Positions 1,869 to 17,699 of a stretch of DNA of 17,699 nt are shown here, piece by piece; position 1 is the stretch's first letter; each line of letters begins with the position of its first letter. The notes under the pieces were generated by a model. The model ran no database searches, was not told the origin of the DNA, and saw only the letters and a list, made by a program, of their open reading frames with translations. A program made the position numbers and the translations under genes. Source of the stretch: Candidatus Altimarinota bacterium. Lineage in GTDB: Bacteria > Patescibacteriota > Gracilibacteria > RBG-16-42-10. Where the stretch lies: NCBI GenBank assembly GCA_017984655.1, contig JAGNZB010000017.1, positions 1 to 17,699 on the forward strand. The letters run 5' to 3'.

Positions 1869-2081
1869 GAATTATAAATTACAAATTACAAATTATAAAT
1901 GGAGGGGGGGGGAAATTAGGAATTAGGAATTGGTAATGAGGAATTGGAGCTGCTCCCTTTCCGTCATCCTCATTCTCTCACCCGCCATCCTGAGCGCAGC
2001 CGAAGGACCTTGCCGAGATACTCGGCAAGTAGTCCCAATCCACAAACCAGCATTGAGCCCCATTTGTAATTTGTAATTTGA
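1869..2081. repeat. Interspersed repeat, copy A (inverted AT-rich ends plus core)
   Basis: Fills most of the 346-bp gap 1800-2145, in which I see no gene. Left end 1869-1901 is an AT-rich tract of AAATTAY-like heptads. Right end 2062-2080 carries the same heptads in inverted orientation. Inside are a second AT module of the type AATTGGTAATGAGGAATT (about 1918-1946) and a 92-nt core (1988-2079). That core is the reverse complement of 17053-17144 with about ten differences. The core includes a perfect 9-bp hairpin CTTGCCGAG-ATA-CTCGGCAAG (2009-2029). A stretch of the form CATCCTGAGCGCAGCCGAAGGA precedes it; similar strings are familiar to me from intergenic repeats in other bacteria, but I cannot verify that here. 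Confidence 0.85.
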
Positions 2082-6363: not shown

Positions 6364-6381
6364 TGATTTTAGTGCATTACT
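6359..6381. terminator. Possible shared hairpin between pgk and tpiA ends
   Basis: AGTAATG (6359-6365) pairs with CATTACT (6375-6381), a 7-bp stem with a 9-nt loop spanning both stop codons. A run of five T follows on the plus strand after three other bases. It is a weak candidate for a bidirectional terminator. Confidence 0.3.
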
Positions 6382-7096
6382 CTGTTTTTGGTAGTGCTTC
6401 AAGGAGTGCAATGATCTCTTCAAATTTGGTACTAGCTCGGCCCACCAAGAAACCTGACAGTCCGGGTATAAGCAGCGACTGGATATTTCTTTGATTGATA
6501 TTGCCGCCATACAAAACTTTGGCAAAACCACAGGCATTGGCAATGGTGATTACCTGCATTAAGCGGTGAGCAGAAAAGGTCTCACTACTACCAATCATCC
6601 ATGTGGGCTCGTATGCCAGTGTGATTGAAGCATAGCGATCATTGATCACCATCGCATAGTGCATTAGTTCTTCAGTGAGCAAGAGGAGGAGTTGTTTGTC
6701 ACTGGTTGTCATTTCTTTCTCACCAAAGCAAAGGATAATTTCTTTGTTGGCCTGGAGTGCTGAAGCGATTTTTTGTTGAATATCTTCAATGGTCTCATGA
6801 TTGAGATGGCTACGCTCTGCATGACCAATGAGAATAGTCTTGGCGGGAATGAAATCAGCTCGAAGGCTCCCTGTCTGAGCTGGAATGAGGTCATTGGCAA
6901 CATCTTGGGCGCCTACTTGGATGGTCGATCCGCTATCGGCTAGTAGTTCCCCAATTTCTTTCAAACTCAGTGCTGATGGCAGAAGACATAGCTGATGTGA
7001 GCTGGGATGGGTGGAAGTATAGTTGATGAGCTCTTTTGTGAGGCTGATTTCTTGAGCTGGTGAGAGGAATTGTTTCCAGTTGGCAACTAAAAGCAT
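6377..7096 (-). CDS. tpiA: Triosephosphate isomerase
   Basis: Interconverts dihydroxyacetone phosphate and glyceraldehyde-3-phosphate, feeding GAPDH. At 239 residues it is near the family norm (about 250). Motifs: ANWK with Asn6 and Lys8, GAQDV (62-66), catalytic His92 in IGHAERS, CFGE (123-126), catalytic Glu163 in AYEPTW, YGGNI (196-200) and FLVGRAS. Two usually firm segments differ: IGHSERR is IGHAERS, and the mobile loop 6, normally P-x-WAIGTG, is PTWMIGSS. The catalytic Lys, His and Glu are all present, so it should be active. The gene lies on the opposite strand to gap and pgk, so it is not in their operon. There is no Shine-Dalgarno before the ATG. Confidence 0.94.
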   Translation of the reverse strand: MLLVANWKQFLSPAQEISLTKELINYTSTHPSSHQLCLLPSALSLKEIGELLADSGSTIQVGAQDVANDLIPAQTGSLRADFIPAKTILIGHAERSHLNHETIEDIQQKIASALQANKEIILCFGEKEMTTSDKQLLLLLTEELMHYAMVINDRYASITLAYEPTWMIGSSETFSAHRLMQVITIANACGFAKVLYGGNINQRNIQSLLIPGLSGFLVGRASTKFEEIIALLEALPKTE

Positions 7097-7135: not shown

Positions 7136-7223
7136 AATTATAAATTAGAAATTAGGAATTCCTAATTTTTTTTGGGGCTTCGTCATCCTGAACCGTGTGA
7201 AGGATCCTGCCGAGTATCTTGGT
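7136..7223. repeat. Interspersed repeat, copy B (short, with 20-bp palindrome)
   Basis: AT-rich module from 7136, then a perfect 20-bp palindrome at 7149-7168 (AAATTAGGAA and its inverse), then a 43-nt core at 7181-7223. The core is the reverse complement of 16447-16489, equal in length and differing mainly in a 7-nt central patch. Only half of the hairpin seen in copies A and D is kept (CCTGCCGAG then CTTGG). It lies between tpiA and rpsB. Confidence 0.75.
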
Positions 7224-7346
7224 TTTTACTTTCTCTATCTCACTTTTTTACTTTTCATGAGCGAAAAAAGTTGAGGTGAAATGTAAAGGGAAACGTAAAT
7301 GTGAAAGTAAAGCTCTGTTGGCTTGTTGATTCTACGGGGTGTTTGA
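7224..7346. other. Non-coding stretch in the tpiA-rpsB gap
   Basis: The gap 7097-7489 is 393 bp. Between repeat B and the rpsB promoter region lies AT-rich sequence with imperfect runs of the form GTAAAGGGAAA and GTGAAAGTAAAG (7280-7312). Similar runs occur beside core C (GTAAAGGGGAAAGTG, 16395-16409), which suggests a further repeat module. I see no gene in it. Confidence 0.5.
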
Positions 7347-7489: not shown

Positions 7490-8341
7490 ATGTCTCTCTC
7501 AATGAAAGACCTGCTCGCTGCAGGTGTGCACTTCGGTCATCGTACACCACGATGGAATCCCAAAATGAAACATTATCTCTACGGTAAGAGAGGTGGTATT
7601 CATATTTTCGATCTTGAACAAACTGCTAATCAGCTCAATGAAGCTTTGGCGTTTCTTTATGATCAGGCTAGTGTTGGTAAGACAATTTTGTTTGTCAGTA
7701 CCAAAAACCAAACTTCAACAATCCTGCCAGAGGCTGCTAAAGCTGCCAATATTCCTTACTTAGCTAATCGTTGGCCAGGTGGTTTCTTGACGAACTTCCG
7801 TACTATTAAGGAGCGCATCAAGTACTTGATCTCTCTCGAAGAGAACAAACAAAGTGGTGAGCTGACTCGTAAGTATACTAAGAAAGAAGCTTTGATGTTT
7901 GAACGTGATATCGTCAAACTCAATGAAGTACTCGAGGGTGTCAAACCATTGAAGAATTTGCCAGATGTAGTGGTGGTCTTTGATGCTGTGCGTGATCAAT
8001 TGGCTATTGCTGAGGCTTTCAAGATGAAGATTCCTGTCATTGCTCTTTGTGATTCAAATGCTGATCCATCAAAAGTGAAAATTGTCATTCCAGGTAATGA
8101 TGATGCCCTTCGTTCATTGACCTTGATGGTCAATGCTGCCGCTCAAGCTGTAGCTGAAGGCCGCAAAGCGTATACGCCAAGTGTTCGTGAGAGTCGTGAT
8201 CAACGTCCAGCTAATCCAGCATCAGTTAAGCCGATTGATAAATTGGATATCTCTGCTGCGGTGATGAGTGAGAAGGACGAGGGTGAAAAGGCTGCTGTAG
8301 CACCTCGTGCGCCAGTAGCTAAGAAAGCTGACGCAAGTTAG
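7490..8341 (+). CDS. rpsB: 30S ribosomal protein S2
   Basis: Small-subunit protein bound at the head-body junction and needed for S1 binding in bacteria that have S1. The sequence is full-length S2: AGVHFGHRTPRWNPKMKHYL near the start, GIHIFDLEQT, FVSTKNQ, ANRWPGGFLTNF, LPDVVVVFDA, IPVIALCDSNADPS and a closing VNAAAQAVAEGR. Cys replaces the usual Asp in the DTN motif (CDSN). The last 60 residues or so form a Lys/Ala/Asp-rich tail beyond the core, taking it to 283 residues. An in-frame ATG at 7502 would shorten it by four residues, but the first ATG is the better fit. It heads a cluster with tsf, the cyclophilin gene, frr and rseP. Confidence 0.97.
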   Translation: MSLSMKDLLAAGVHFGHRTPRWNPKMKHYLYGKRGGIHIFDLEQTANQLNEALAFLYDQASVGKTILFVSTKNQTSTILPEAAKAANIPYLANRWPGGFLTNFRTIKERIKYLISLEENKQSGELTRKYTKKEALMFERDIVKLNEVLEGVKPLKNLPDVVVVFDAVRDQLAIAEAFKMKIPVIALCDSNADPSKVKIVIPGNDDALRSLTLMVNAAAQAVAEGRKAYTPSVRESRDQRPANPASVKPIDKLDISAAVMSEKDEGEKAAVAPRAPVAKKADAS

Positions 8342-15762: not shown

Positions 15763-16291
15763 TGTGTAGCTCGGTAGCATAGCCCTTGTGTTTGGCAAAG
15801 CCGTATTGGGGAAACTGCTTATCGAGCTTGGCCATCAGTCGGTCTCGGCTCACCTTGGCGAGAATTGACGCAGCTGCAATGCTTTTGCTGATCGCGTCCC
15901 CACCGATGATCGACTTCTGAGCGATGCCGGGATAGGTAATATTAACAGCATCGAGCAGCAGAAAGTCAGGCTTGATCGTTAACTTCTTTACTGCCTGCAG
16001 CATGGCTCTTTTGGTAGCATTGAGAATATTGACCTTCTCAATCAACCCCACAGGGCCGTGGACGACACTATAGGCTAGGGCTTGTTCCTGAATAATAGGG
16101 AAGCAATACTCTCGCTCGGCTTCAGTCAGTGCTTTGGAATCATTTACGAGATCACAACTGAAGTCAGCAGGAAGAATGACAGCTGCAACTGTGACGGGAC
16201 CGGCGAGAGGACCTCGTCCGGCTTCGTCGATGCCAGCGATGAATTGGAAGCCAGAGGCCCAAAGTTGATTTTCTTCTTGGAAGCTGGACAC
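15662..16291 (-). CDS. rnhB: Ribonuclease HII
   Basis: Cleaves RNA in RNA-DNA hybrids, including single ribonucleotides in DNA. The active-site carboxylates are visible: Asp22 and Glu23 in GIDEAGRGPLAGP, Asp114 in LLLDA and Asp150 in VSRDRL. Also DSKALT (51-56), SIAAASILAKVSRD (137-150), YGFAKHKGYAT and the family-typical end HHRLSF (188-193). The 209 residues are normal. The start is a GTG at 16291; no in-frame ATG is nearby and no Shine-Dalgarno is seen. Its stop is the only TGA in the window and lies inside the convergent membrane-protein gene, with a 101-nt overlap. The AT-rich end of repeat C begins 4 nt upstream of the start. Confidence 0.95.
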   Translation of the reverse strand: MSSFQEENQLWASGFQFIAGIDEAGRGPLAGPVTVAAVILPADFSCDLVNDSKALTEAEREYCFPIIQEQALAYSVVHGPVGLIEKVNILNATKRAMLQAVKKLTIKPDFLLLDAVNITYPGIAQKSIIGGDAISKSIAAASILAKVSRDRLMAKLDKQFPQYGFAKHKGYATELHIRTLRQFGPCMHHRLSFLRFLDDGSTDHTSQAK

Positions 16292-16295
16292 GGGG

Positions 16296-16557
16296 ATTAA
16301 TTAGGAATTGGTAATTAGGAATTTGTAATTTGGCTCAGGGAATGCATTGTGGTTTTGGGTGACATTGATTGTGTACTATGGTTCTCTTGGAAGGTAAAGG
16401 GGAAAGTGAACGGGAAGTTAATGGTTGGGTGTGGGAGAGTGTGGGAACCAAGATACTCGGCAAGATCCTTCGCGTTGCTCAGGATGACGGCCATGCAGGG
16501 GGAGAATGAAGTGCCCTCCCCAATTCCTCATTACCAATTTCTAATTACTAATTTAAT
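16296..16557. repeat. Interspersed repeat, copy C (inverted type-II ends)
   Basis: Fills the rnhB-rlmH gap. Left end (16296-16333) and right end (16519-16557) carry the same AT-rich module in inverted orientation, sharing AATTGGTAATKAGGAATT; the right end has about one unit more. Between them is a 43-nt core (16447-16489), the reverse complement of 7181-7223. The right end overlaps the rlmH stop codon. The rest (16334-16446) is GT-rich and without recognised content. Confidence 0.75.
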
Positions 16558-16996
16558 AGTGATATTGTTGGTTGTGGCTGATTTTGTAGGAGCGGAATAG
16601 TTGTTCTAGGAGGAGAATGTAGGCTAGCTCGTGAGGGAATGTCAGGGGTGAGAGGGAGAGTTGCTTCCAGTGTTTTGGTAGTGATGGATAATGCCAGCCG
16701 AAGGGGCCGGCTATGATCAAGTAGTATCGGTCGTGACTTTGCCATTGATCTTGCCATAGCTTGGCAAATGCAAGTGAGTCATATGTCTTCCCACGCTCAG
16801 TTAGTATAAATACCCTCTGTTCATCTTTGTACTTATCGACAATTAGCTGAGTATCAGCTAGTGCTTCTTCGGTACTCTTCAAGGTCCGAATCTCATATGG
16901 TACTCGCAGCTTAGTCAGCAGATCGAGATAATGAGCTTCAGTCTCCATCAGAAACTGAGATCGAACCTTGCCAAATCGAATGATGGTAAAAGCCAT
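16553..16996 (-). CDS. rlmH: 23S rRNA (pseudouridine1915-N3)-methyltransferase RlmH
   Basis: SPOUT-type methyltransferase that modifies pseudouridine 1915 in helix 69 of 23S rRNA, using SAM on 70S ribosomes. The SAM-binding and dimer region is recognisable: LTERGK (65-70), IIAGPFGWHYPSL (94-106), LSLSPLTFPHELA (113-125), LLLEQLFRSYKI (128-139) and the closing YHY (145-147), where Tyr-His-basic is usual. IAGPFG replaces the more common IGGxxG. The 147 residues are slightly below the usual 155-159. The stop codon lies in the AT-rich end of repeat C; the start is about 40 nt from the end of repeat D. No Shine-Dalgarno is seen. Confidence 0.93.
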   Translation of the reverse strand: MAFTIIRFGKVRSQFLMETEAHYLDLLTKLRVPYEIRTLKSTEEALADTQLIVDKYKDEQRVFILTERGKTYDSLAFAKLWQDQWQSHDRYYLIIAGPFGWHYPSLPKHWKQLSLSPLTFPHELAYILLLEQLFRSYKISHNQQYHY

Positions 16997-17036
16997 AAGT
17001 AAATGGATAACTAACTTTACTGTGCATGATACGTGG

Positions 17037-17373
17037 GGGAATTACAAATTATAAATTACAAATTACAAATGGGGCTCTATGCTGGTTTGTAGATTGGGGA
17101 CTACCTGCCGAGATCCTCGGCAGGGTCCTTCACTGCGTTCAGGAGACGGAAGGGATGGGTGAGAACTAGAATAAGAACGAAAGTAAGCCTGTGAATACAA
17201 TCGATGAGTTACCTCATCATCATTCCTATCCGAACCTTCGTCTTCGTCTCAGTCTTAGTCTTCGAGCACCTTTGGTGCTCGTGGTGAGTGGTATCTCTCC
17301 ACGAATCTCAGTAAACTACCACTGAATTCCCCCACTGCAATTTGTAATTTATAATTTATAATTTGTAATTCCC
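17037..17373. mobile_element. MITE-like element with 34-bp terminal inverted repeats (copy D)
   Basis: A 337-bp non-coding element filling the rlmH-rmuC gap (378 bp). Left end 17037-17070 and right end 17340-17373 are inverted copies with one mismatch in 34, built of AAATTAY heptads after GGG. Inside, 17053-17144 is the core shared with copy A, including a perfect 9-bp hairpin CCTGCCGAG-ATC-CTCGGCAGG (17104-17124). A further perfect hairpin is at 17263-17281. It contains no convincing gene and no transposase. I see no clear target-site duplication at the borders. The right end stops 1 nt before the rmuC ATG and provides TATAAT boxes (17350-17355, 17357-17362). Confidence 0.75.
17263..17281. 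other. Perfect short hairpin inside element D
   Basis: CGAGCACC (17263-17270) and GGTGCTCG (17274-17281) form a perfect 8-bp stem with a TTT loop. No T-run follows on either strand. It may be part of the element's own structure. Confidence 0.5.
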
Positions 17374-17374
17374 T

Positions 17375-17699
17375 ATGGAGCTCTTTCTTATTATCATTAC
17401 CCTCGCCCTTTTGGCTTATCTTATTATTCGGCTGCATGATTTGCAGCAGTCGATGAAGAATGATGTGCATGGATCGGTGCAGTTTAGTAGTGAACAGCTG
17501 AGAAATAGTAATCAGTTGATTGCTAATGTGACTGAGAAGTTGGTGACTATTGAGCAATCACAGCAACAAGTGTTGTCATTTGCGGGACAGCTCCAGCGAC
17601 TTGAGCAAGTGTTTCAGAATCCAAAGCGTCGGGGACTGATTGGTGAGTACATGCTCGCGGAGCAGCTTCGAGAGATTCTTCCTCGCCACACCTATGATC
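17375..17699 (+). CDS. rmuC: RmuC-type DNA recombination protein, 3' end cut by window
   Basis: Only the first 108 codons are present. The N-terminus is a membrane segment (ELFLIIITLALLAYLIIRL), followed by a Gln-rich coiled-coil-like region (about 22-78). It reads into QRLEQVFQNPKRRGLIGEYMLAEQL, the family entry to the nuclease-like RmuC domain (usual form: L..IF.NPK.RG..GE..L). RmuC proteins are associated with limiting DNA inversions at short inverted repeats; the biochemical role is not well settled. The ATG at 17375 is 1 nt beyond the right inverted repeat of element D and has no Shine-Dalgarno. Confidence 0.88.
   Translation, partial: MELFLIIITLALLAYLIIRLHDLQQSMKNDVHGSVQFSSEQLRNSNQLIANVTEKLVTIEQSQQQVLSFAGQLQRLEQVFQNPKRRGLIGEYMLAEQLREILPRHTYD

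Follow-up and report, generated by a model that had tools for sequence, protein, structure and literature searches.

What occupies the spacer between rlmH and rmuC at the end of a contig from a Candidatus Altimarinota bacterium (Patescibacteriota; Gracilibacteria)? The window analysed here is contig JAGNZB010000017.1 (assembly GCA_017984655.1) at its full length of 17,699 nucleotides (nt); it is contig C13 of the genome designated G000, which comprises 1.045 Mb in 92 contigs and is 93% complete. A sequence-only reading of the window had described positions 17037..17373 as a non-coding element that resembles a miniature inverted-repeat transposable element (MITE), with 34-bp inverted ends and no target-site duplication (TSD). 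We report that this element belongs to a family dispersed as a unit in G000, whose members share exact inverted ends made of four tandem heptads, and that the same design, written with another heptad, is used in a second genus of the same taxonomic family.

The ends of the element consist of four heptads

The two arms of the window copy, 17037-17070 and 17340-17373, are complementary at 33 of 34 positions (97%), and the only mismatch is a C/T difference at the Y of the third AATTAYA heptad. Alignment of 61 ends of G000 gave a 31-bp consensus, four AATTAYA heptads followed by AAT, and a family end was defined by at most two mismatches to it; this census, and every figure based on 61 ends, covers the matches listed (about 100 places) and not every match in the genome. 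The 34-bp arms are thus real in the window copy, and the conserved family end is 31 bp, the outer GGG being a weak preference (G in 36/61, 35/61 and 26/61 ends at positions -1, -2 and -3). The family boundaries of the window copy are 17040-17370: the left end (17040..17070, plus strand) reads AATTACA, AATTATA, AATTACA, AATTACA and AAT, which gives the C/T pattern CTCC, and the right end (17340..17370, minus strand) has the pattern CTTC. The simplicity of these ends, remarked on as unusual from the window alone, turned out to be the key feature of the family.

A 26-mer of the end gave 64 + 58 overlapping matches in G000 with up to three mismatches; the reversed pattern gave 0 + 0, so these matches are not due to chance. 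Of 61 G000 arrays that had three or more perfect RATTAYA units, 55 had four, five had three and one had five (three-unit counts are too low here and for the AACTTAG arrays below, as search patterns of about 3.7 units were used for both; the upper cut-off is unaffected). End-to-end identity was 97% with the C/T positions ignored. The C/T pattern was CCTC, CTCC or TCCT in 48/61 ends, and these are three registers of a single 21-bp (C-C-T) pattern, related by a 7-bp slip at constant length. Outside the 31 bp the flanks were unrelated save for a purine bias; on the inner side was a G-rich stretch, often GGGGCTC. The pattern also varied with the side of the core, CTCC being found on 9/15 hairpin sides vs 4/24 sides designated B (p = 0.013; 22/61 unclassified ends were excluded and the grouping was chosen post hoc), which indicates a tendency of ends to travel together with their cores. 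G000 also contained elements whose ends are of a degenerate AATTAGG type, including one at 16299-16553 of the window.

The family is dispersed in intergenic DNA, with about half of the ends in inverted pairs

Among the matches listed, 30 of the 61 ends formed 15 intact inverted pairs with 111-340 bp between outer edges. The ends are therefore not mostly single; a predominance of single ends would have spoken against a mobile origin. The 31 unpaired ends comprised 12 lying less than 450 bp from a contig end (the G000 assembly breaks at many heptad elements), three with a fragmentary partner, six with a degenerate AATTNNN partner and 10 that seemed solo, one of which is 477 bp from a contig end.

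As far as open reading frames (ORFs) tell, the interior of the window copy is non-coding, as proposed: a single ORF of at least 80 aa enters it (17255-17557, minus strand, also overlapping rmuC) and no ORF of 80 aa is contained in it. It lies, as originally described, between rlmH and rmuC, which are divergent: the right arm stops at 17373 and the rmuC ATG begins at 17375, and the left arm is 40 nt from the start of rlmH (minus-strand ORF 16553-16996). This rmuC start is backed by a homologue in a related genome (G001, see below), which aligns from residue 1.

Simple ORF calling gave a neighbouring gene for 60/61 ends. Of 22 ends facing a gene stop, 19 lay between -15 and +14 nt relative to the stop codon, a position that compact spacers alone might explain, and ends facing a gene start were 4-290 nt from the start codon (38 cases). 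In the 14/15 pairs with both sides called, three junctions were convergent, four divergent and seven co-directional.

The interiors are mosaic and share a palindromic module

The interiors of 37 elements, each at least 150 nt long, were compared by local alignment, those of single-ended elements being taken as 300 nt inward. They are mosaic, with a median identity of 0.68 and a maximum of 0.87 over the 504 pairs aligned over at least 100 nt. In the window copy, an end plus subterminal module (17053..17098, plus strand) is 96% identical to an inverted copy at 2034-2079. It is followed at 17104..17144 by a double hairpin like those of repetitive extragenic palindromic (REP) sequences (CCTGCCGAG...CTCGGCAGG and TCCTTCAC...GTTCAGGA), and the mosaic centre holds another hairpin, CGAGCACCTTTGGTGCTCG, at 17263..17281.

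The REP-like double hairpin recurs as an interior module in most longer elements, as family-wide repeats with compensatory changes; five elements of 111-129 bp had no such hairpin and retained their ends. Among the module sequences found (33 of 40), hairpin pair 16-23 was A-U in 17, G-C in 16 and broken in none. Cells changed on both sides numbered 23, above all 500 shuffles; pairs with a double-sided change numbered three, which is not exceptional (152/500 shuffles reach three), and in the second helix three outer pairs were broken in 12-16 of the 33 sequences. Palindrome correction in DNA could be an alternative cause of the compensatory changes.

The REP-like motif is also a site of insertion. 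A complete 1,069-bp insertion sequence (IS) lies in it at L239 1478-2546 (G000:C69); it is flanked by the 7-bp duplication CAGGATG and encodes a Mutator-type transposase (PF00872, 24.8 bits, cut-off 21). One of the two ends of this IS was found at the same motif within each of five heptad elements, at contig ends (C6, C68, C76, C56, C87). Two elements at contig starts (G000:C49:1-125 and C69:1-155) have another IS-like end, GGCTCTAGACTAGCAGACGG, within their heptad part.

A second genus uses the same design with another heptad

The only genome of the same family compared with G000 was G001, which belongs to another genus. It contained no AATTAYA array (0 + 0 at up to two mismatches). An AACTTAG pattern gave 71 + 66 overlapping matches there at up to three mismatches, vs 0 for the reversed pattern, and had no match in G000 or in six other genomes of the class; in fuller form the G001 word is AAYTTWG. 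Among 33 G001 loci (30 of the matches listed and three more), 37 different arrays of at least three units were counted, nine with three units, 26 with four and two with five, so that the step from four units to five is far less frequent than the one from three to four (p = 1.6e-8). In a period scan of three G001 stretches, all seven arrays detected had period 7; periods 5, 6 and 8-11 were absent. Some G001 arms face each other 6-14 bp apart. Five of the 30 junction rows obtained for G001 were the same array one heptad on; the remaining 25 comprised 14 co-directional, five convergent and three divergent junctions, one array inside an ORF and two without a call. In conclusion, two genera of one family have mutually exclusive words and the same four-unit limit. 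G001 also has a second heptad type, AATTGTT/AATTGAT, seen as near-identical arrays flanking one gene (L294 71-105 and 713-749, G001:C23).

Three orthologous spacers were compared; apart from rlmH and rmuC, the genes of the window and of G001 were named by eye, as were ftsE, lepB, GT2 and DUF4012. The rnhB-rlmH junction carries an element designated B-type in G000 but lacks any heptad array in G001, and the spacer measures 261 nt in G000 vs 21 nt between called ORFs in G001, or about 87 nt if the G001 rnhB starts at the aligning methionine. The ftsE-lepB spacer (58 nt in G001 vs 121 nt in G000) has an AACTTAG array in G001, and the GT2-DUF4012 spacer (82 nt vs 255 nt) is occupied in G001 by an inverted pair of four-unit AACTTAG arms. 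An account in terms of clean empty sites was abandoned, as the G001 spacers carry AACTTAG arrays.

One G001 contig keeps the order of the window: an rseP-like gene, a hypothetical gene, an AI-2E-type transporter gene, rnhB and rlmH; the window has two extra ORFs before the transporter gene. In G001, rmuC is about 7 kb farther along and in the opposite relative orientation, which places the rlmH-rmuC element at a rearrangement breakpoint.

Heptad arrays in other genomes and in viral contigs

The class set comprised 353 genomes, none of the same genus as G000. The end pattern had any match in 29 of them and more than eight matches solely in G000 (33 + 29) and G034 (33 + 66). In the seven stretches of G034 that were read, the matches were pure tandem arrays at contig ends reaching at least 12 units, which suggests long arrays breaking the assembly; in its contigs C3, C6, C13, C21, C32 and C43, the first or last bases are a pure AATTACA array, about 97 bp long at most. 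A scan of genome contigs, which may omit records very near the genome of the window, found the exact 35-base end pattern at four places (Flavobacterium, and Bacteroidetes, Cloacimonadota and Bacillota metagenome-assembled genomes (MAGs)). In the stretches read, these were single arrays of 4, 4, 8 and 10 units with no paired ends. The exact 35-base pattern was found at 0 places in viral contigs, and a search of genome contigs with rlmH found no relative.

Three or more perfect AATTACR units were present in 69 distinct arrays from IMG/VR, of which 39 had three units, 28 four and two five (p = 3e-4). Of 42 AATTAGG arrays in viral contigs, 29 had three units, nine four, three five and one seven. 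This is a smooth decay (p = 1), and the four-unit rule is therefore not universal by the unit-count measure. GGGAATC was found at three places in viral contigs, too few to judge.

Several of the arrays outside G000 and G001 stand in settings of their own. A Mu-like phage contig (L104, IMGVR_UViG_3300020045_012626; Portal_Mu, GemA and terminase by Pfam) has 12 AATTACG arrays at eight places, some in frame within ORFs and others paired in inverted orientation across short spacers; several of these arrays, translated in frame, yield LRITNYELR-like peptides. Its relatives L159 and L160 had no two-unit match in the stretches compared, and at three places (gemA, about 9066 vs L160, and about 6359 vs L159) the L104 arrays lie in DNA that is extra relative to them; divergence blurs the joins in these alignments, and the remaining places did not align cleanly. 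A 600-bp stretch of a Bacillota MAG (L073, WQYM01000124.1) combines AATTACA and CCCCCAT heptad arrays with an inverted pair of 8-bp CAGTAGTG units, the arms of which differ in their R variants. In another class member (L098, G015:C75), a four-heptad AATTACR array at about 409-440 continues into the start codon (ATG) of a gene identified by eye as rlmH-like.

Other features of the window and of the genomes

The rlmH gene (16553..16996, minus strand) encodes a SPOUT methyltransferase (PF02590). The rmuC gene (17375..17698, plus strand) is cut by the contig end, and its N-terminal piece scored 25.5 bits with PF02646, just below the 26-bit cut-off. The neighbouring element at 16299..16553, whose degenerate AATTNNN four-heptad ends are at 16299-16330 and 16522-16553, fills the rnhB-rlmH spacer. 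A second AATTAYA element lies at 1870..2078, with its right end truncated to about 17 bp, and an AATTNNN array with a REP-like hairpin lies at 7136..7225, between a minus-strand ORF (6377-7096) and a plus-strand ORF starting at 7490. Rfam gave no match in 16250-17450 at E <= 1 and none in the window at gathering scores.

Read outward, the right end of the rlmH-rmuC element has two TATAAT hexamers shortly before rmuC; no promoter-like site was listed in this end, only the TATAAT strings, and an outward promoter role near rmuC would be speculation from sequence.

Further inverted short-period arrays seemed present in G000 by eye at C37:10000-10350, C88:17700-17950 and C35:1700-2050; they consist of hexads like GTAAAG flanking CATGAGCGAA, hexads like AGTCTC and heptads like AGGAAAC. 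In-frame TGA codons were observed in conserved genes of the class members G014 and G011, a trait that would point to Patescibacteria of the Gracilibacteria group.

Comparison with known repeats

Bacterial MITEs, such as Correia elements, are short, non-coding, intergenic multi-copy elements with inverted ends and variable interiors. The heptad elements share all of these traits. They differ from MITEs in having no TSD, ends that are a fixed number of tandem heptads, interiors diverged far beyond the ends and no partner transposase found (the Y1 family alone was searched). With REP sequences and their paired form (REPIN), mobilized by a REP-associated tyrosine transposase (RAYT), they share a core in which a pair of REP-like palindromic hairpins is conserved and into which ISs insert; unlike REPINs, their ends are not REP hairpins, and no RAYT was found in G000. 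Cyanobacteria have short tandemly repeated repetitive (STRR) heptamers along with small dispersed repeats; these are intergenic tandem heptamers, partly of a similar AATTACG-type word, and it is in this general description that the likeness lies.

The closest described parallel in the four-unit preference is that of the GGGAATC heptads of Xanthomonas, which are intergenic, form arrays mostly of four units and are reported as inverted convergent pairs, 70 in one genome and 75 in another (Rehm et al., 2015; PMC4692102). The four-unit preference (55/61 arrays in G000, 26/37 in G001) and the convergent inverted pairs are common to both systems. The present words are A+T-rich without G-tracts, whereas the Xanthomonas and Nostoc words (GGGAATC and GGGGA(T/C)T) are G-rich. 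The present arrays are exact element ends, whereas the available text does not describe theirs as ends around a shared core, and states that they are 'generally' without mobile-element association. In Beggiatoaceae, the TAACTGA heptanucleotide is likewise a genome-specific intergenic word, with more than 100 sets; as described in the part available, these are small direct-repeat sets mostly upstream of start codons, with one inverted case (MacGregor, 2015; PMC4679880), unlike the inverted ends described here. A satellite survey reports other heptamers (PMC6749651). Searches of open-licence literature returned nothing on MITEs of the candidate phyla radiation (CPR) or Patescibacteria, on Gracilibacteria or Peregrinibacteria repeats, or on the present words.

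Possible origin of the four-heptad elements

The data tip slightly in favour of the rlmH-rmuC element being a non-autonomous, MITE-like, dispersed intergenic element with four-heptad ends, copied by a trans-acting recogniser; it is best read as a variant within a class of repeats that has been described but not explained. Transposition-like spread is supported by ends common to dozens of elements at unrelated loci with an exact outer boundary. The restricted occurrence of the end pattern in the class, the alternation of A-U and G-C at core hairpin pair 16-23, the four-unit cut-off of G001 and the phage arrays in extra DNA of L104 count in favour of the same reading. The original MITE-like label holds for the dispersed family, the exact shared inverted ends, the unrelated sites and the variable interiors, and it is from these that we infer transposition itself. 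The enzyme, its reaction and any present activity are accordingly put forward as a model. A trans-acting recombinase or nuclease would recognise the four-heptad block at both ends and copy or move the unit. If each heptad were one binding site, the C/T register could slip by 7 bp while the length stayed fixed. After insertion, selection would retain copies outside coding DNA, and co-evolution of ends and recogniser might account for the switch of word between genera, from AATTAYA in G000 to AACTTAG in G001.

Several observations weigh against this reading. Ten of the 61 ends seem solo, and single arrays predominate among the AATTACR arrays read in viral contigs and in other genomes. No TSD was found outside the ends of the 15 pairs at k = 2-10, which extends to the family what had been noted for the window copy: at seven k values the left and right flanks were less alike than an all-against-all comparison predicts, and their identity exceeded that expectation slightly at k = 4 (0.200 vs 0.169) and k = 8 (0.250 vs 0.245). 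A TSD of AATT could lie hidden within the ends. No autonomous copy was found, that is no + ... - end pair at kb distance and none enclosing a gene, in the stretches read of this fragmented assembly. The Y1 transposase (PF01797), the one family searched, had 0 matches in G000 and was present in 5/14 control genomes. Both AATTAYA junctions tested in G001 hold AACTTAG arrays, not empty sites. Finally, the interiors are far more diverged than the ends, which is not the mark of a recent burst, and this contrast suggests that the ends are still under constraint or undergo conversion.

Local slippage of heptads trimmed to four units, with inverted pairs arising secondarily by fold-back copying and no transposon family at all, would fit the frequency of single arrays elsewhere, the smooth decay of viral AATTAGG arrays and the G034 arrays of at least 12 units; heptamers are over-represented among simple sequence repeats of many bacteria, according to two reports (PMC4679880, PMC4692102). 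We consider this unlikely, because slippage predicts no sharp stop at four, and five units were found in 1/56 G000 arrays with at least four perfect units, in 2/28 such arrays of G001 and in 2/30 viral AATTACR arrays; it also leaves the shared 200-300 bp cores at unrelated loci unexplained. A similarly low probability is given to the heptad pairs being functional intergenic parts, such as terminators, insulators or sites for nucleoid proteins, with lineage-specific words. That two orthologous convergent junctions carry arrays in both genera, with different words, speaks for such a role, as does the clustering of 19/22 stop-facing ends near the stop codon; however, compact spacers alone put insertions beside stop codons, junction types are mixed in G000 and G001, and the rnhB-rlmH junction has an element in one genome and no heptad array in the other. 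Similarly, the RNA fold of the element lies far under shuffles (z about -10), a value that is partly automatic for a long inverted repeat. In 16900-17500 the element showed no GC stem plus T-run at gene ends; the lone terminator-like site has a 7-pair stem on the minus strand and lies within the element, which, with the mixed junction types, speaks against an intrinsic terminator.

Mobilization of a REPIN-type element by a Y1 (RAYT) transposase through the REP-like hairpins would account for the covarying double hairpin in the core. We regard it as very improbable given the result for PF01797 in G000 and the controls, and given 31-bp ends that are not hairpins and are retained by elements devoid of the REP-like module. 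We attach almost no credence to a four-unit rule set by G-quadruplex formation, to which Rehm et al. (2015; PMC4692102) tie the number four in the Xanthomonas GGGAATC repeats. Those repeats do show the same four-unit bias and convergent pairs, but neither strand of AATTAYA or AAYTTWG has a G-tract and both words show the same cut-off, so G-quadruplexes cannot be the general cause of the rule. A G-quadruplex origin was rejected for these two words.

Beyond the MITE-like reading of the G000 family, the sharing of a four-unit design by different words points to a general process that spreads or maintains such blocks. A broader proposal is tentative, and we would sooner expect it to fail than to hold: four-heptad blocks (28 bp plus 3-5 nt, about three helical turns) may be the recognition ends of an undescribed, widespread DNA-spreading system with lineage-specific words, which would move singly or as inverted pairs with mosaic cores, without TSD, and re-occupy gene junctions under a different word; on this view the repeats of Xanthomonas and Nostoc would be its G-rich members. 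Heptamer repeats have been described in many bacteria with no agreed mechanism. Here they form the exact ends of a dispersed element, and an old descriptive puzzle becomes a testable question: what measures four heptads?
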